From Isosphaera pallida ATCC 43644 (GTDB lineage Bacteria; Planctomycetota; Planctomycetia; Isosphaerales; Isosphaeraceae), in the NCBI RefSeq assembly GCF_000186345.1, contig NC_014962.1, positions 3,004,450-3,068,449 of the forward strand: a stretch of 64,000 nucleotides of DNA, read 5' to 3'. How positions within the stretch are numbered: the first letter of the stretch is position 1; the number at the start of each line of letters is the position of its first letter. The notes beneath the pieces are model-generated. The model did not search any database. It worked only from the letters and a program-made list of their open reading frames with translations, and had not been told where the DNA came from. This document shows, one piece after another, positions 49,483 through 58,270 of the stretch. The position numbers and the translations under genes are program-made.

Positions 49483-50610
49483 ATGAGGACCATGCGACGC
49501 ATGGACGTGCGACAACCGAGGGAACGGTGTGGCGACGCGGGCCAACGAGCGCGACACGGAGTCGTCGTGCTGGCAGGGGTTTTGGCGTGGTGCGGCGGTT
49601 GCGCTAAGCCGTTGGACATCCGGACCCAAAATCGGTTCGACGTAGCCGGTTCAGTCGAGACCCGAGTGACAGCGGAACTCTCGGCGGTGTCTCAAGGGGG
49701 GCCGGTGGTGGCGGTCGCGGTCGAACCGGGGGTGCCGGTCGAGTGCGCCAAGGTGGCGCTCATCGACCTCGATGGCCTGATCGCCAACGCCCCGATGGCT
49801 GGGTTCTTCTCGCTGGGCGACAACCCGGTGGCGACCGTCTCGGAGAAACTGGCCGCCGCGGCCCGCGACCCTACGATCATGGCGGTGGTGGTGCGGATCA
49901 ACTCTCCCGGAGGCGGCGTGGCCGCCACCGATGCCCTTTGGCGCGAGGTCCAGAGCTTCCGAAGTCGCACCCGCAAACCCACCGTCGCGGCGATTATCGA
50001 CGTGGGAGCCGGCGGCGGCTACTATCTGGCGGCGGGCTGCGATCGGATCGTGGCCGCCCCTGGCGCGATCATCGGAGGCATCGGCGTCGTCCTGAACCTC
50101 TACAACGTCAAGGATCTGATGGCCCAATTCAACGTCTTCTCCCAGTCGATTAAAGCGGGCGACAAGATCGACCTGGGCAGCTCAGTCGAACCCCTCGATG
50201 ACGAGAGCCGCCAGCTGCTCCAAGAAATGGCCGACGAATACCATGAGCGGTTCAAGCAGGTGGTCCGTCGCGGACGCCCCGGCCTAACTCCCCAGGCCGA
50301 ACCGTTGGCCTTCGACGGTCGCATCATGAGCGCCCGACGCGCCCTGGAACTCGGCCTGATCGACGAGATTGGCCACCTGGAGGACGCTCTGGCCACCGCC
50401 CGCACCCTCGCTGGCGTGCCCGACGCCGTGCCAGTCCTGTTCCGTCGCCGGGGCGACGCGGCCTATTCGCTCTACGCTGTGACTCCCAACACCCCAATCC
50501 AAAACCAACTCCTCCCCTTCAGCATCCCCGGCGTGGAACGGGCCAAGTTGCCTGGCTTCCTCTACCTTTGGCAAGCCGAGCCCACCCTGGAGCGCGCGTC
50601 CGGCCGATAG
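49483..50610 (+). CDS. S49 (SppA-like) peptidase family protein lacking catalytic residues
   Basis: 375 residues. An N-terminal hydrophobic segment (GVVVLAGVLAWCGGC) may be a signal peptide or a weak lipobox. The rest has the ClpP/crotonase-like S49 fold: VALIDLDGLIANAP, VVVRINSPGGGVAATDALW, PTVAAIIDVGAGGGYYLAAG and IIGGIGVVLNLYNVKDLMAQ. In SppA the motif reads ASGGYY with the serine nucleophile; here it is AGGGYY (Gly177). The general-base Lys region SGAHKDIMS corresponds to AGDKIDLGS, with Ile at the aligned Lys position. A pseudoprotease is likely, perhaps a scaffold for the MacB-like genes that follow after 107 bp. Confidence 0.8.
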   Translation: MRTMRRMDVRQPRERCGDAGQRARHGVVVLAGVLAWCGGCAKPLDIRTQNRFDVAGSVETRVTAELSAVSQGGPVVAVAVEPGVPVECAKVALIDLDGLIANAPMAGFFSLGDNPVATVSEKLAAAARDPTIMAVVVRINSPGGGVAATDALWREVQSFRSRTRKPTVAAIIDVGAGGGYYLAAGCDRIVAAPGAIIGGIGVVLNLYNVKDLMAQFNVFSQSIKAGDKIDLGSSVEPLDDESRQLLQEMADEYHERFKQVVRRGRPGLTPQAEPLAFDGRIMSARRALELGLIDEIGHLEDALATARTLAGVPDAVPVLFRRRGDAAYSLYAVTPNTPIQNQLLPFSIPGVERAKLPGFLYLWQAEPTLERASGR

Positions 50611-50717
50611 ATCGCCCTCCGCCCGCCCAATCCCTCCTTCCTCCCGTCCCGCCTCGCTCAACTCACTACCTCTCACACGTCCTCGGAACGTCTTCTTTCT
50701 TAGGGAATCTCGAGCCG

Positions 50718-51870
50718 ATGAGCTGGTGGCGCTTGATCTGGTCCAACATTCGGCGACGACCCACCCGGTCACTGTTGACCGCGGCGGGAATCGCCGCCTC
50801 GGTGGGGGCGGTGGTCGCGCTCAGCGGCATCACTGACTCCTTCCGGCGCAACTTTCTCGACCTCTATCAAAGTCGCGGGATCGACCTGGTGGTGGTGCGG
50901 GCCGGCACCTCGGCTAACCCCGGAGCCAAGATCGACGCGGGCCTGGGCGAGCGGATCGCCGCCTTGCCCGATGTCCGCGCGGTGGCTCCCGGCCTAGTGG
51001 ATGTGGTGTCGTTCGAGCGCGAGGGCCTCATCGGCGTGCCGATCCAGGGCTGGCCGGTCGGCTCGTTCCTCTTCGACGAACTCAAGTTCGTCGCTGGGCG
51101 GCCGTTCGTGTCCGGCGAGGACACCCCGGATACCCGCAAGGTGATCCTCGGGGCTATCCTGGCCCGCAACCTCTCCAAGACGGTCGGCGACACCCTGGAG
51201 ATTCAGTTGGAACCCTTCGAGATCGTCGGAATTTACGAAAGCGGCAACATCTTCGAAAACGGTTCGGCAGTGGTGCCGATCGAGGCGCTGCGCGACCTGA
51301 TGCAAATCGACGATCAGGTGACTGACTTCCAGGTGATGTTGGCTCAGGATCGCCGCGACGAGGCGCACGTCAAGCAGGTCCGCGACGCCATCGAGTCGCT
51401 CCGCGACGCCGAGGGCCGACGTCTGGGACTGGCCGCGCTGCCAACCCGCGACTACGTCAACGGCTTCGCTCAACTGAAAATCGCCGAAGGCATGTGCCTA
51501 GCGACCCTGACGGTGGCCTTGTTCGTGGGAACGATGGGCATGCTCAACACAATGCTGATGTCGGTCTTCGAGCGGACCCGCGAATTCGGCGTGCTGCGGG
51601 CGTTGGGGTGGCGTCCGGGGCGAATCGCGTGGTTGGTGGTGACCGAAGCAGTCACCCTGGCGTTGCTCGGCGCGATCCTGGGCATCCTGGGAGCCTGGGT
51701 TCTCGTGGTGGTGCTGAGCGGTCTGCCAGGAATCAACGGCTTCCTCACCGCCGATCTCTCGCCCCGGATCATGCTTCAGGGGGTGGTTCTGGCATTGATC
51801 GCGGCGCTTCTGGGCGGCCTTCACCCTGCTCGACGAGCCGCGCGTCTCTCACCCATCGAGGCCATCCGCC

Positions 51871-51878
<8 letters not shown>
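50718..51878 (+). CDS. MacB/FtsX-like ABC transporter permease
   Basis: 386 residues. One N-terminal membrane helix (RSLLTAAGIAASVGAVVALS) is followed by a ~230-residue extracytoplasmic MacB_PCD-like domain (DLVVVRAGTSANPGAKIDAG, IVGIYESGNIFENGSAVVPI) and three C-terminal helices with FERTREFGVLRALGWRPGRI and HPARRAARLSPIEAIRHE. This is the FtsX/LolCE/MacB topology used for lipoprotein sorting, mechanotransmission or toxin efflux. It shares an 8-bp overlap with the ATPase that follows. No periplasmic adaptor is adjacent. Confidence 0.9.
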
Positions 51879-52737
<859 letters not shown>

Positions 52738-52769
52738 AACGTCTTGGACCGTCGTTCCCTCAACCTTCC

Positions 52770-52980
52770 GGTTGATGTCGGGCGAGGCGGTGGAGGGAAT
52801 CGTCAGCGCCACCTCCCGTGCATGGTCGGGAATCGATGGGTCGGAGGCTTCGGTCAGCTCCCGCTGATGGAGTTTGTGGAACACTGTGCCGGGCGTCAGC
52901 GGCCTGGACCGACTCGCAAGCTCAACGGCGTGCCCCGATCCGAATCCACCACCATCCCCGGCAACCCCAGCCCGCGCCTC
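52770..52980 (-). pseudogene. Inverted, internally deleted copy of part of the terminase-like gene
   Basis: Read on the minus strand this segment matches 55609-55687 and then 55869-56001 of the terminase-like gene, with the ~181 bp between them missing. By hand alignment there are about 8 differences in about 211 positions. The translated stretch TPGTVFHKLHQRELTEASDP is readable, but the deletion shifts the frame, so it cannot make the protein. The high similarity implies a recent duplication or gene-conversion event within the islet. Confidence 0.85.
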
Positions 52981-53106
52981 GGCTTGCCCACGCCTTGCCA
53001 TAAGGCAAGGGAATCCGTCCACCACGTCCCGTCCCTCCCTTGCGGATCGACCGGCCGGAGCGGTTCGACGACCCGGGGCGAATTTGGCCACAAGAACCTT
53101 GGAGGA

Positions 53107-53934
53107 TCAGGCAGGGTCGTCCAAACCAGCTGACTCGTCGTCGTTGTCGATGAGACGAGCGATCCACCACCAAGAAGGGGGGTCGGATTCGGGTAGGAAG
53201 TGAACCCCAGCTTGAATGAGCCGAGTGAAGACGGCGCGGTTGGTCTTGCGATCCAGCCCGTCGCCGGGATCACAAGCCAGACGAATGAGCTCGGCGGTCT
53301 CCAGGTCGCCACGCTCCTCCAACCAATCAGCGTAAATCAACGACTCGGTCGGGTCGATGGACTCCCCCTGAACCAACGCCTTAGCGAGGCGGGCCTCGAT
53401 GCGGTCGGCGAAGTCGGAGGCGGAGACGACCAAATCCGTCAACGAGCGGGTCGCCGCGCCGCTGCACTGATCCCGCATCGCCAACGCCCGCGCCTGCTCC
53501 ACCACCCAGCGTTGAGCCAACAACACCCGAAATCGCCGAGTCCACCAAAGGCGATCCCGGCGGGCCGTCTGATGCGACTCCTCCCGACGCGCCTTGGCCA
53601 ACAGCCGATGAATCGTGGTCGAGCCATGCCAGGGAGCCAGACACGAGGCCATCCGAATCACCGACTCGAACACCCCGCCGGCCGGGACCATCCGCAAAGC
53701 CACTTCTTGGAGGCAATCGCGTACCACCACGGCCGGCTGAGAACCAGGAGAACCTTCTAATTCGCGGAACAGCTTCGTCACCAACTCGATCAGCGCCGCC
53801 TCATTGACCTCGCGGCAAGGACGGCCCCGACGAGCCTCCGCCGCTCGTCGCGCGATCGCCAACACCACGCCAGCGGCATCGCGCCGCTGAAGACGCTCGA
53901 CATCGGCGGCGCACGGACGCACCGGATCGGTCAT
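53107..53934 (-). CDS. Unknown protein with TIGR02996-like repeat-companion motif
   Basis: 275 residues. Near residue 215-235, PTESLIYADWLEERGDLETA matches the TIGR02996 repeat-companion motif (yaDWLeerGd) common in large planctomycetes. The rest is Arg- and Ala-rich and helical, with no catalytic motif recognised (LLAKARREESHQTARRDRLW is notable for its basic character). ATG 53934 is chosen because MTDPVRPC starts the plausible coding region. It lies between the terminase fragment and the terminase companion gene and is divergent from the latter; role unknown. Confidence 0.65.
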   Translation of the reverse strand: MTDPVRPCAADVERLQRRDAAGVVLAIARRAAEARRGRPCREVNEAALIELVTKLFRELEGSPGSQPAVVVRDCLQEVALRMVPAGGVFESVIRMASCLAPWHGSTTIHRLLAKARREESHQTARRDRLWWTRRFRVLLAQRWVVEQARALAMRDQCSGAATRSLTDLVVSASDFADRIEARLAKALVQGESIDPTESLIYADWLEERGDLETAELIRLACDPGDGLDRKTNRAVFTRLIQAGVHFLPESDPPSWWWIARLIDNDDESAGLDDPA

Positions 53935-54196
53935 CGTTGCACTCCTTACACTCCATGCCATCCGCTTCGAGGGGCGACATCGATGTTCCAGGGACATCGG
54001 AACCACGTTCCGACTACACCCGTTGCCGGTTTGTTTCAATGGCCGGCGTTTCGCTCACTCTCACGCTTGGCTGGGTTATCGATTCGCTCGGGAGCAATCA
54101 CTTCTCCTCAAGTGTACTCATCGAACGTCGATTCCGATCACTCCCGCCGCGGCTCCCTCCCGGCGATGCCGTCCGTCCCGAACCGAGGCCGCTTTG

Positions 54197-54568
54197 ATGG
54201 TTCCCTCCGCTCCCGATTCCGTCGCCCCTGTGGACCATTCCCATCCCCTCGTTGATCCAACCGATTCGAGACTCGATCCGACCACCTGGACCCACGATTG
54301 GTCTCATCCCGGTCCTCGACGGCTCACTTTGCTGGAACGCTTATTCACGCTCATTGAACAAGATCGCGTCAAACCCTCCGAACTCGTCAGCGCGATCAAC
54401 GCCCTCACCCGAATTGACGAGTATCGTCTGCGTAAACGTGGCTGGTCACGTCGAGGCAATTCGGGCCGCCCCACCCAACACGACGGCTTCGAAGCCGAAC
54501 GCGATCCTAATCGCCCGATCGCCCAGGTCGCTTTGGAAATCCTGGCTGACCAGGCTCGTGATGGGTAG
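54197..54568 (+). CDS. Small unknown protein upstream of the terminase-like gene
   Basis: 123 residues from ATG 54197 (MVPSAPDSVAPVDHSHP); an upstream in-frame extension to 54023 looks non-coding. The C-terminal half is helical with LTLLERLFTLIEQDRVKPSE and LVSAINALTRIDEYRLRKRG, a pattern that could be a small DNA-binding or terminase small-subunit-like helical bundle. I do not recognise the family. It reads toward the terminase gene, and its stop codon abuts the G-rich repeat tract. Confidence 0.5.
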   Translation: MVPSAPDSVAPVDHSHPLVDPTDSRLDPTTWTHDWSHPGPRRLTLLERLFTLIEQDRVKPSELVSAINALTRIDEYRLRKRGWSRRGNSGRPTQHDGFEAERDPNRPIAQVALEILADQARDG

Positions 54569-54664
54569 GGAGTGGGGTGTGGGGTGTGGGGTGTTCGGAG
54601 TGGGGTGTGGGGTGTGGGGTGTGGGGTGTTCGGAGTGGGGTGTGGGGTGTTCGGAGTGGGGTGT
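54569..54664. repeat. G-rich heptamer tandem repeats (left tract)
   Basis: Head-to-tail heptamers GGGGTGT with interspersed TCGGAGT / GGAGTGG variants; roughly 13 units in 96 bp, starting at the base after the stop of the 54197 gene. Runs of four G every seven bases could form G-quadruplexes on this strand. The right tract carries the same heptamer family in inverted orientation. Confidence 0.9.
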
Positions 54665-54978
54665 AGAAGATTGCATGGAGAGTTTCGAGTTGAGACGGAA
54701 GAAGTGAGTAGAGAAAAACCAAAACAAGCTGTTGGTGATCGTAGGGCAAAGTGACATCAGCATTCCGGTTTGCAAAAGTCTCAACAATACCTTGGTATTG
54801 TTGAGTGTTATTAAGTTGATAATGACGTTCAATATTATACTTCTTAAACTTAGTTATAGTCATTGATGATCGATGTAACATCCCACAACTTGCTCTTCTA
54901 CTTCGATCAAATCTTACCTCTCATCTTCTCGCTTTTTACTTATCATCCCACAGCCCGAACTCCCTGCTCTCTACGCTC
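54665..54978. other. AT-rich core between inverted repeat tracts, with a 24-nt palindrome
   Basis: About 314 bp clearly richer in A+T than the rest of the window. TCAACAATACC-TT-GGTATTGTTGA at 54781-54804 is a perfect 11-bp inverted repeat with a two-base centre. No convincing gene. The composition suggests foreign origin or an intergenic control region of the islet. Confidence 0.6.
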
Positions 54979-55218
54979 TACTCGAACACCCCACACCTCA
55001 CACCCCACTCCCCACACCCCACTCCCCACTCCCCACTCCCCACACTCCACACCCCACTCCCCACTCCCCACACTCCACACCCCACTCCCCACTCCCCACT
55101 CCCCACTCCCCACACCCCACTCCCCACACCCCACTCCCCACTCCCCACTCCCCACTCCCCACACCCCACTCCCCACTCCCCACTCCCCACTCCCCACACC
55201 CCACTCCCCACTCCCCCC
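54979..55218. repeat. C-rich heptamer tandem repeats (right tract)
   Basis: About 240 bp of CCCCACT and CCCCACA heptamers, the reverse complement of the left tract's units (including one ctcgaacacccc that mirrors the left ggggtgttcggag). It ends 26 bp before the terminase ATG. Heptamer tandem repeats of the CCCCRGT type are known as STRR elements in filamentous cyanobacteria; this is a similar but not identical unit. Confidence 0.9.
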
Positions 55219-55244
55219 CTTGAACTTGAAGAGAGGGAACGAAC

Positions 55245-56906
55245 ATGCGGAAAGAGAAAGAGGAGATAAGGACGCTTGCAACCCCGTTGATGGTCGAGGA
55301 ATCGACAGCGGGGATGGTGGCACGGGCGTTACGCTGTTTGGCCGACGACCCGGTAGGATTCAACCGTTTAGCGTTGGGGCGTCCCGACTACTGGGAGGGT
55401 CAACGCCGCGCGGCGTTGGCGTTGACACGGGCACGATCGGTGGTGGTGGCGACCGGCAACGCGGTGGGGAAGAGTTATTTGGCGGCAGGCCTGACCTTGT
55501 GGTGGTTGTACACCCATCCCGGTTCGCTCGTGGTGGCAACCGCGCCGAGTCAAGGATTGCTTGGCACCGTGTTGTTTCGAGAGCTTCAAAAAGCGTTGGC
55601 CGCGTCGCGGAGGCGTGGGCTGGGGTTGCCGGGGATGGTGGTGGGTTCGGATCGGGGCACACCGTTCAGCTTGCGGGTCGGTCCAGGTCGGCGATTGGCC
55701 GCCGAGGGTTGGGGCTGTCTGGGAATCGCTACCCGCGGCGTGGAACGGCTCGCGGGCCGTCATCATGCCGATTTGATGGTGGTGGTGGACGAGGCGTCCG
55801 GAGTCCAGCCGGAGGCGTGGGAGGCTCTGACTTCACTCAACCCCCGCAAGCTGTTTGTTTGCGGCAACCCGCTGACGCCCGGCACGGTGTTCCACAAACT
55901 CCATCAGCGGGGGCTGACCGAAGCCTCCGACCCATCGATTCCCGACCATGCACGGGGGGTGGCGCTGACGATTCCCTCCACCGCCTCGCCCGACATCAAC
56001 CTGGAACGCTCGCCACGCGGCCTGGCCGACCGCGGCTTCATCCGCGAGGCGGAGCGGCAATGGGGACGTGGCTCCCCCTTGTGGCTGTCTCACGTCGAGG
56101 GGGTGTTTCCCACCGTCGCGGTCCACGCCTTGATCGAACCAGGCTGGCTCGACCAAGCCGCCTCTCTCGAACGTTCGCAAACCTACGAGAACCCCCCCGG
56201 GCAGCCTGTGCTGGGCTGCGACCTGGCCGCCGGAGTCGGTGCCGACCGCACCGCGATCGTCGTGCGAGACGAGGGCGGCATCCGCGAATTGATCGCCTCC
56301 GACCGCCTAGCCCCCGACGAGGCCGCCACCCTGATCGCCAGTCTGGCGCGCAAACACCTCATCGCCCCCGAACGCATCCTCTACGATGGCGCAGGTCTGG
56401 GCGCGGAATTGACCACACGGCTAGCCCGCCAGGGTCCCGGCTTCGTTCACGCTCGCGCCATCTTCGGCGCGGCTTCGGGAGGCGCGGGCTTTCTCAACCA
56501 TCGTGCTTGGTGTGGCTGGCGGTTGCGTCAACGACTCGATCCCAGCTACTCGGGCCTCGATCCCATCGCCATGACCGGCGGGGAACCCGCGACGCGGGTG
56601 GTCTGGGATGGCGACCGCTTCGACCCGGCTACCCAAACCTGGCGCCTTCCCCCCGACGACGACCCCACCGACTTCGCTGCCCTTGGTCCCGCCTTGCGTC
56701 CCGCTCGCTCCAACCAAGCCAGTCGGCTTCCCTTCGTCATCCCCCCCGAACCCTGGTGGCCCAACCTGCGTGAGGAACTGGAGGCGCTGAGGTACCGCTT
56801 GGTCGGCACCAAACTCGCCCTGGAGGACAAACGCGAAACCCGGCGACGGCTAGGACGCTCGCCCGACCTGGCCGACGCCCTCTTGATAACCTTCAGCGTC
56901 GATTAA
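55245..56906 (+). CDS. Terminase large subunit-like ATPase/nuclease (orphan)
   Basis: 553 residues. Phage terminases package DNA with an N-terminal ATPase and cut it with a C-terminal RNase H-like nuclease. Here the Walker A-like loop is VVVATGNAVGKSYLAAGLTL (about residues 66-85), Walker B DLMVVVDEASG (about 175), and motif III-like KLFVCGNPLTPGTVF. The nuclease part has GCDLAAGVGADRTAIVVRDE and RILYDGAGLGAEL with acidic residues. ATG 55245 follows AGAGGG. No portal, capsid or tail genes are in the window, so it is an orphan: a prophage remnant, a gene-transfer-agent part or a domesticated gene. Confidence 0.82.
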   Translation: MRKEKEEIRTLATPLMVEESTAGMVARALRCLADDPVGFNRLALGRPDYWEGQRRAALALTRARSVVVATGNAVGKSYLAAGLTLWWLYTHPGSLVVATAPSQGLLGTVLFRELQKALAASRRRGLGLPGMVVGSDRGTPFSLRVGPGRRLAAEGWGCLGIATRGVERLAGRHHADLMVVVDEASGVQPEAWEALTSLNPRKLFVCGNPLTPGTVFHKLHQRGLTEASDPSIPDHARGVALTIPSTASPDINLERSPRGLADRGFIREAERQWGRGSPLWLSHVEGVFPTVAVHALIEPGWLDQAASLERSQTYENPPGQPVLGCDLAAGVGADRTAIVVRDEGGIRELIASDRLAPDEAATLIASLARKHLIAPERILYDGAGLGAELTTRLARQGPGFVHARAIFGAASGGAGFLNHRAWCGWRLRQRLDPSYSGLDPIAMTGGEPATRVVWDGDRFDPATQTWRLPPDDDPTDFAALGPALRPARSNQASRLPFVIPPEPWWPNLREELEALRYRLVGTKLALEDKRETRRRLGRSPDLADALLITFSVD

Positions 56907-57142
56907 TCCCAACCCCCGCCGCCCAACCGATCTCCCCTCCCCCACCGCTCAAGTCTATGTGAACGTAATAACAGCGTTGGGCGCAACATCCGGTCATGGT
57001 AAGGTTTTGTCACCCGGTTGACGGATGATTCGCTCAAGCGGATCCTGCCCGCGCGACGAACAACCAAGGATGGTGTGGAGGACGACGGAATGGACGGGGG
57101 TGGCGGGGGGCGTCCCCAGGTGGGATTGGGAGGGGTGAAGTC

Positions 57143-58270
57143 GTGTCTACGGTGACAAACGCAAATCCGCCGATCATTCCGTTGTCTCAGCTTCAGCATG
57201 GCCAAGAGGCGATCTGTTTCGCCGCCTTGTCGCGCAAGGAAATCGGGACCGACCGTCACGGCAATCCGTTCGTCAAGTGCGTGTTCCGCGATCGTTACGT
57301 CGAGCGTCTGGCTCCGCTGTGGTGGTCCAACGCCTTTCGAGAAGTGGCCGCCAATTGGCGGGAGGGGGATGCGTTTCGGTTGCACGTCAAAGGCCAGCAT
57401 TTGGTCAAATATGGATTTCAGCTTGAAATTATCGATGCGCGTCCGGTGGTCGATTCCGACGTGGCGGACGGCTACAATTATTTTCAGCTGGTGGAGTCGT
57501 CCGACCGGGAACCGGAGGATTTATTGCGCAATGTGCGGGCGGTGATCGACAAGGCGATCGACGAACCGCCGTTGCGGCGGTTGGTTCACGCGATCATTGA
57601 CGAGCATCAGAGTCTCTTCATGCGGATGCCGGCCTCCCAGTCGTTTCATCACAATTACACCGCCGGTTTGCTGGAGCATGTCTGGAGCATGACCCGGATC
57701 GCCGGATTTTTGGCAGAACATTACGCGCGCTACTACCACAACCTCAATCCCCCGCTCAACAAGGGGATCATCGTGGCCGGGGCGGTGTTGCACGACATTG
57801 GCAAGCTGTTTGAACTGGATTACCACCCGGTTGAGGCCAAATACACCATCCAAGGCAAGTTGATTGGTCATGTGCTGATCGGTCGAGACATGGTCCGCGA
57901 GACGGCGCGGCGGCTGGGCGACGTGCCGGAGGAGACGTTGTTGTTGCTGGAACACGCGATCCTCGCCCACCACGGCCGGGAGGAATTCGGCGCGCCCAAG
58001 CCGCCGCAAACCTTAGAGGCGTTGATTCTCCATTACATCGACGACCTCGACAGCAAGGTGAACGCGGTGGCCCGCCAGCGGATCAAGTCCAACGGCGACG
58101 CTCCCTGGACCGACCGGATCGGCTCGCTGAACAACCGACAGTTTTATCGCGGTGTGCCGGTTCCACCGCCGCCGTTGGACCCTACCGAGGCAACTCACGA
58201 GCCGCCCGAACCAAGGTTGCGGTTGCATAAGGACGACCGCGAACCCCAAACCAACACCAGACCCGATTGA
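57143..58270 (+). CDS. YhaM-like 3'-5' exoribonuclease (OB fold plus HD domain)
   Basis: 375 residues. The first ~120 residues form an OB-like nucleic-acid-binding domain (RHGNPFVKCVFRDRYVERLA, FRLHVKGQHLVKYGFQLEII); the HD domain begins around 170 with ASQSFHHNYTAGLLEHVWSM, then VAGAVLHDIGKLFELDYHPV (HD pair), LEHAILAHHGREEFGAPKPP and LILHYIDDLDSKVNAVARQR. This is the YhaM family, which degrades RNA and single-stranded DNA from the 3' end with Mn2+. GTG 57143 is the start. A Pro-rich tail of ~45 residues follows the HD domain. Confidence 0.9.
   Translation: MSTVTNANPPIIPLSQLQHGQEAICFAALSRKEIGTDRHGNPFVKCVFRDRYVERLAPLWWSNAFREVAANWREGDAFRLHVKGQHLVKYGFQLEIIDARPVVDSDVADGYNYFQLVESSDREPEDLLRNVRAVIDKAIDEPPLRRLVHAIIDEHQSLFMRMPASQSFHHNYTAGLLEHVWSMTRIAGFLAEHYARYYHNLNPPLNKGIIVAGAVLHDIGKLFELDYHPVEAKYTIQGKLIGHVLIGRDMVRETARRLGDVPEETLLLLEHAILAHHGREEFGAPKPPQTLEALILHYIDDLDSKVNAVARQRIKSNGDAPWTDRIGSLNNRQFYRGVPVPPPPLDPTEATHEPPEPRLRLHKDDREPQTNTRPD

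Follow-up and report, generated by a model that had tools for sequence, protein, structure and literature searches.

The terminase gene

Why does the chromosome of the hot-spring bacterium Isosphaera pallida ATCC 43644 carry what looks like a solitary gene for phage DNA packaging? The gene, terL (55245-56906, + strand; chromosome start 3059694), lies in a stretch of 64,000 nucleotides, hereafter the window (chromosome 3004450-3068449), in an islet for which a first-pass annotation had reported a terminase large-subunit-like ATPase/nuclease and no other phage genes. We tentatively favour the reading that this islet is the DNA-packaging half (TerS-like small terminase plus TerL) of a phage-derived particle system whose head-tail half is encoded at another chromosomal site, about 160 kb distant. 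The genome searched comprised 5,529,304 bases in two contigs; the genome report for I. pallida IS1B gives a chromosome of 5,472,964 and a plasmid of 56,340 bases (PMC3072084).

TerL (553 aa) matches phrog_2 (PHROG terminase large subunit, E 4e-24) and keeps every residue that is invariant across 13 family members. Invariant columns of the 13-row alignment include G75, K76, E183, D326, D381 and D544, which we take to be P-loop, Walker B and nuclease residues. A PDB sequence search gave no match at E up to 1. The structures closest to the predicted model (mean pLDDT 81) were the Sf6 gp2, T4 gp17 and D6E terminases, with TM-scores of 0.3 to 0.5 over the full length and 0.69 to 0.75 (by target length) for the Sf6 nuclease domain alone. 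With these residues and the modelled fold conserved, TerL is predicted to be a tailed-phage large terminase that joins a P-loop ATPase motor to an RNase H-like nuclease, in agreement with the first-pass annotation. It is the single intact member of its family in the genome, accompanied by two fragment pieces at 52770-52983.

In sister loci of the TerL family a portal gene (about 500 aa) follows TerL in 11 of 12 cases, and the twelfth contig ends there. Exact peptide patterns found no TerL in IMG/VR; the 13-row alignment found 234 loci, of which 80 were kept, and among the 63 with at least 1.8 kb past TerL the portal of this family was present in 46 and its capsid in 20. TerL was also matched in 9 of 44 other genomes of the host family (Isosphaeraceae), at least once in an integrase-bearing prophage, and a scan of the genome collection gave four loci, none of them from a congener and three on contigs equal in length to ones met before. 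The Isosphaeraceae prophages (one with an integrase) and IMG/VR contigs share the order TerL, portal, capsid, tail, with a TerS-like gene upstream of TerL in some. In these elements the portal follows TerL, whereas in I. pallida the two are about 172 kb apart.

In the prophage of genome G393 an integrase lies 2 kb from TerL and a small-terminase gene is present. In this locus (L042, 8807-15163) integrase, small terminase, TerL, portal and tail genes are tightly packed and a host-type oxidoreductase gene adjoins the integrase; the element may be compact or satellite-like. Genome G394 holds two further TerL pieces (L230 and L231), fragments without a portal; L231 (4460-4708) is a lone 83-aa piece of the TerL C-terminus on a portal-free contig, a terminase relic. 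The portal profile matched none of 11 extended phylum-level TerL loci (L232-L242; a twelfth, L011, was left out), so these phages have other portals or none nearby.

A head-tail cluster in the same chromosome

Portal and capsid profiles of TerL's phage family found nothing in the window. Each found one gene elsewhere in the genome, the portal at 2885752-2887047 (E 2e-95) and the capsid, in the same cluster, at 2887750-2888643. The claim that there are no other phage genes is thus true of the window, apart from a TerS-like gene and the TerL fragment, and does not extend to the genome.

The cluster (chromosome 2885698-2897620) lies about 160 kb from the islet, on a single strand and without a TerL of the islet's family; terL starts 172.6 kb past the end of the portal gene. 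Its order is portal, scaffold-like gene, capsid, several small genes, a tail-like 309-aa protein and a 905-aa protein, which is the order of the G393 prophage minus TerS-TerL. The predicted portal model (pLDDT 81) matches the solved portals of NF5, Douge, Bxb1 and 80alpha at E down to 1.5e-13. For the capsid protein the match is phrog_283, and for the tail-like protein, weakly, phrog_290 (E 0.011). The portal had no match in annotated phages, nor in IMG/VR by exact patterns; the capsid matched six annotated phage records at 22 to 25% identity. Of ten further cluster genes, six (275, 309, 276, 197, tail-like 309 and 905 aa) showed relatives, at E no worse than about 4e-4, among the sister loci or IMG/VR contigs; the other four (scaffold-like, 140, 139 and 158 aa) showed none there.

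When the 253 genes called in 328 kb of chromosome (2800001-3128400) were compared with the IMG/VR loci, TerL matched 80 of them, the portal 49 and the capsid 19; three further cluster genes matched one to three loci and an open reading frame (ORF) over the TerL fragment matched three. Another five genes had between one and five matching loci apiece. Gene boundaries in all fetched loci come from our own ORF picking, and two minus-strand picks in the head-tail cluster were replaced after the frames had been listed.

Only two PF00589 recombinases were found in the genome, at 4.27 and 4.37 Mb, more than 1.2 Mb from either locus. Neither locus has a PF00589 integrase or a recognised replication gene beside it, the genome-wide search for genes of these kinds having covered PF00589 alone. 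No 11-mer is common to the stretches flanking the islet (52501-53150 and 56851-57250), nor to the short flanks compared for the head-tail cluster. An intact prophage was rejected as a candidate: packaging and head-tail genes are apart, no PF00589 recombinase is nearby and the flanks, as far as these short stretches extend, carry no repeats.

Purifying selection on the head-tail genes

A scan with the capsid protein found an IMG/VR contig of 10,232 bases that is 98.98% identical to, and collinear with, chromosome 2887121-2897353. It reaches neither the portal nor the TerL locus, and the selection test covered the 11 genes of the head-tail half, with the starts of p276 and p905 set later than first picked. 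These genes differ by 44 synonymous and 32 nonsynonymous changes, giving an omega of 0.26 by simple counting (p 5e-9) and of 0.33 (p 1e-6) when the expectation is set by the observed mutation spectrum. Differing sites are rarer in genes (76 of 9095) than elsewhere (27 of 1138; Fisher p 2e-5), where a stretch of about 276 bases counted as non-genic (L115, 12524-12799) may hold an 80-aa gene with two of the changes. The one indel is intergenic, three bases past a stop codon. None of the 76 changes makes a premature stop, which alone says little because only 2.3 would be expected among random changes. Synonymous and nonsynonymous counts were 7 and 1 for the capsid, 6 and 1 for p309, 9 and 12 for p905 and 1 and 4 for p140.

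As judged from these substitutions, the head-tail half without the portal is under purifying selection between two populations; with omega at about 0.26 to 0.33 it is not decaying. Because the contig has no host flank, it may be host chromosome or virus.

These results bear on the main rival, in which a rearrangement tore an ordinary prophage in two, the integrase and other genes were lost, and TerL survives by chance or slowly decays. The G393 sister prophage, with its integrase close to TerS-TerL-portal, fits this history, as do the broken inverted TerL piece (a local rearrangement), the shortened portal and long branches. However, apart from the portal, the head-tail genes keep open frames and show purifying selection, and TerL retains all family-invariant residues, so we regard a split remnant as rather unlikely.

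The small terminase candidate

The first-pass annotation had noted a small helical companion of the terminase. This ORF (54197-54568, + strand, 123 aa) is present, and it can now be described as a candidate TerS relative. Four sister prophages with TerS-like genes upstream of TerL supplied the seed of a TerS profile. At a cut-off of E 1 this profile detected relatives in 21 of the 80 IMG/VR loci (E of 0.0013 or less in 19), upstream of TerL in the cases listed. The first, four-row profile gave the companion an E of only 1.8. With the iterated profile of 21 rows, from which the companion had been excluded, it ranked second of 7311 sequences at E 0.0019; the best match (E 0.0018) was an ORF overlapping a TerS gene in another frame, and the third (0.0078) an unrelated protein. 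Alignment with hhalign gave 40% probability over 64 columns.

The weak profile match and the position upstream of terL together make it likely, though not certain, that the companion is related to the TerS of TerL's own phage family. The idea that it travels with the terminase was not supported: at E up to 0.001 the protein was unmatched in all 44 of the other family genomes. A review describes the TerS of gene transfer agents (GTAs) as lacking a detectable DNA-binding domain (PMC11841831).

A proposed two-locus system resembling gene transfer agents

The islet contains phage-derived packaging genes and the cluster phage-derived structural genes, at distant loci (TerL at 3059694, portal from 2885698) that would serve one system. 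With packaging genes at one locus, head-tail genes at another and no PF00589 recombinase nearby, the arrangement fits a GTA-like system. The islet motor would fill heads built from the distant cluster, the two loci acting together, and, as in a GTA, the DNA packed would be that of the host, as suggested by the lack of a common-kind integrase and of a recognised replication gene beside either locus. TerL would probably use its own promoter because a heptamer element, described below, separates it from the TerS-like gene. A GTA is the most likely working of such a split system, with the split prophage as its main rival. Of the proposals in the first-pass annotation, that of a gene-transfer-agent fragment has survived best, in altered form: the islet becomes the packaging locus of a two-locus phage-derived system.

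A fuller version, which we hold to be possible and doubtful, is that I. pallida makes a true GTA with an Sf6-like motor encoded 160 kb from the capsid and that, in addition, 133-base TerL repeats could flip the first 0.6 to 0.76 kb of TerL, reversibly switching packaging off. To our knowledge such a GTA would be the first in Planctomycetota; none in this phylum was described in the titles or abstract openings of the literature matches listed.

Sf6 and T4 package by the headful mechanism, and the model of TerL is closest to the headful-type Sf6 gp2 and T4 gp17, a parallel with GTAs. RcGTA-like TerLs fall among those of headful phages, nearest to P22-like ones (PMC7947584). GTAs such as RcGTA likewise have packaging and structural genes spread over far-apart loci, with no common-kind integrase close by, and the review that lists such features warns of their close likeness to remnant phages (PMC11841831). 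Unlike the I. pallida cluster, the head-tail cluster of RcGTA includes DNA packaging genes (PMC7947584). An Isosphaeraceae hot-spring genome is reported to hold an 'incomplete' 11.5-kb prophage region with head, capsid and tail genes and no attachment site (PMC8597652).

Several observations weigh against a joint GTA-like system. The own portal lacks the C-terminal part of its family, and p140 shows no constraint (on five changes only). A virus that is still active could be the source of the selection signal. Since the genome was searched for the islet's TerL family alone, some other TerL may belong to the head-tail cluster. The nearest sister differs between the genes, being G399 for the own TerL (85/92) and G396 for the own portal (87/95), in trees of TerL, portal and capsid that gave no resolution. 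G+C content at third codon positions (GC3) is 0.756 in TerL, which is host-like (0.74 to 0.80 in its four host neighbours), and only 0.63 to 0.71 in ten head-tail genes; TerL and the head-tail genes could therefore have different histories. Reduced carbon cost of the encoded proteins is a signature expected of GTAs. Here it is mixed: TerL is low (none of 33 GC3-matched homologues is lower), whereas the capsid is above all 19 of its homologues and the portal above 88% of 49.

The differences in nearest sister, GC3 and carbon content would suit two unrelated leftovers, the head-tail cluster stemming from one phage and kept for another use (for example, a phage-tail-like or capsid-like DNA-free particle) and TerS-TerL from another. 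Yet the own TerL and portal group with the same seven loci (weakly supported for the portal), and no second TerL, portal or capsid of TerL's family was found in the genome. Such a pair of leftovers is improbable.

Telling GTAs and dead prophages apart is difficult. With its two loci, its separate motor and selection at the population level, the GTA-like system is a concrete GTA candidate in a cultured type strain. More generally, before a terminase gene that stands alone is labelled an orphan, its capsid should be sought across the whole genome.

The broken copy of terL

A feature missed by the first-pass annotation lies at the left edge of the islet (52770-52983, - strand). It is an inverted, internally deleted part of terL, in which nucleotides 363-446 (84 at 92% identity) and about 625-762 (133 at 98%) are joined with 178 omitted; over 222 nucleotides the copy differs by 10 substitutions and the loss of one base. 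By its sequence it is a broken relic. The inverted repeats 52770-52902 and 55869-56001 (133 bases, 98% alike) are 2966 bases apart, one of them within terL; if they recombined, 3 kb would be inverted and the gene split.

Other contents and flanks of the islet

Between this fragment and the TerS-like gene lies a gene for a TIGR02996-domain protein (53107-53934, - strand), as had been noted earlier (NCBIfam E 9e-9, above cut-off). Neither PHROG nor Pfam gave a match to the protein at E up to 0.1, and its sequence shows no link to packaging.

It had been proposed that the terminase, the TIGR02996 protein and the heptamer tracts form a self-contained mobile or domesticated islet. The compact, bounded layout and the inverted TerL sequence at the left edge are what such a unit might show. 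However, portal follows TerL in nearly all sister loci, the companion is unmatched in the other family genomes, and the islet flanks compared share no 11-mer. The heptamer tracts, moreover, were rejected as part of the islet; the same element is dispersed elsewhere while TerL occurs only here. The proposal is accordingly very improbable.

Profile matches confirmed that the islet sits between host genes, a MacB/LolCDE-type permease (50568-51878) with its ATPase (51871-52737) on the left and a YhaM-like HD-domain protein (57143-58270) on the right, all on the + strand. The YhaM-like gene has matches in 40 of 45 family genomes, the own genome counted. A comparison of the MacB and YhaM genes in relatives, suggested as a way to find an empty site, gave nothing usable: none of the 20 YhaM regions retrieved contained the MacB pair. 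Of these, 18 reached 10 kb or more upstream of YhaM, and L118 and L121 less than 7 kb. One, L125 (8240-9448, genome G392), has a MacB-type permease, 30% alike and without an ATPase, that precedes YhaM by 3.8 kb on the same strand; it may be a vestige of the former gene order. The head-tail cluster is bordered on the left by Fur and endonuclease V genes and on the right by genes for a thioredoxin-like protein (from its sequence) and a starch/glycogen synthase.

The inverted heptamer element

The inverted G-rich heptamer tracts and AT-rich core of the first-pass annotation are borne out. The element (54558-55216) consists of a G-rich array (about 54568-54664), a core of 321 bases with 40% G+C (54665-54985) and a C-rich array (about 54986-55216); the arrays are 79 to 87% complementary in the pairs listed. 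On the left its arm begins at about the stop codon of the TerS-like gene; on the right, 28 bases separate the other arm from terL. Compared with 20 shuffled versions, the element folds much better as single-stranded DNA (z -16).

Exact matches to GGGGWGTGGGGWGTGGGGWG number 105 on one strand of the genome and 112 on the other, and the other 44 family genomes have none. In 11 of 17 stretches (the window and 16 fetched regions, chosen from listings and one of them incomplete) a C-rich array comes within 1.5 kb after a G-rich one, a lower bound on the number of elements; the reverse order was found in none. The core in the window is 84% alike to one at 3070810 and 73% to one at 4130625.

Convergent pairs of G-rich heptamers are already reported in Xanthomonas, so the kind of element is known; 70 and 75 cases are counted in two genomes, and GGGGA(C/T)T repeats are described in Nostoc (PMC4692102). 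Both these and the I. pallida repeats are intergenic, tandem, G-quadruplex-capable and arranged in convergent pairs. They differ from those described there (PMC4692102) in that the I. pallida unit is GGGG(A/T)GT, in arrays of about 5 to 33 units as against 2 to 26 (mostly four); in that the cores recur (73 to 84% alike at three sites); and in that 6 of 11 cores have a further inverted repeat of 52 to 74 bases and one holds a TIGR02436 gene. The recurring cores and inner inverted repeats set the I. pallida element apart.

The plasmid contig carries heptamer arrays at C1:49485-49535, 56169-56336 and 4-75, none of them (two stretches) paired within 1.5 kb. A second copy of the window's element (L106, chromosome 3070712-3071162) lies 11 kb from the first and is 85% alike over 455 bases. 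A further element (L103, chromosome 2792573-2793791) has inner inverted repeats of 60 bases (98%); inside it (2792973-2793296) is a TIGR02436 four-helix-bundle gene, the sole one that turned up in the genome. It recalls the intervening sequences of 23S rRNA, which encode such four-helix-bundle proteins between inverted repeats.

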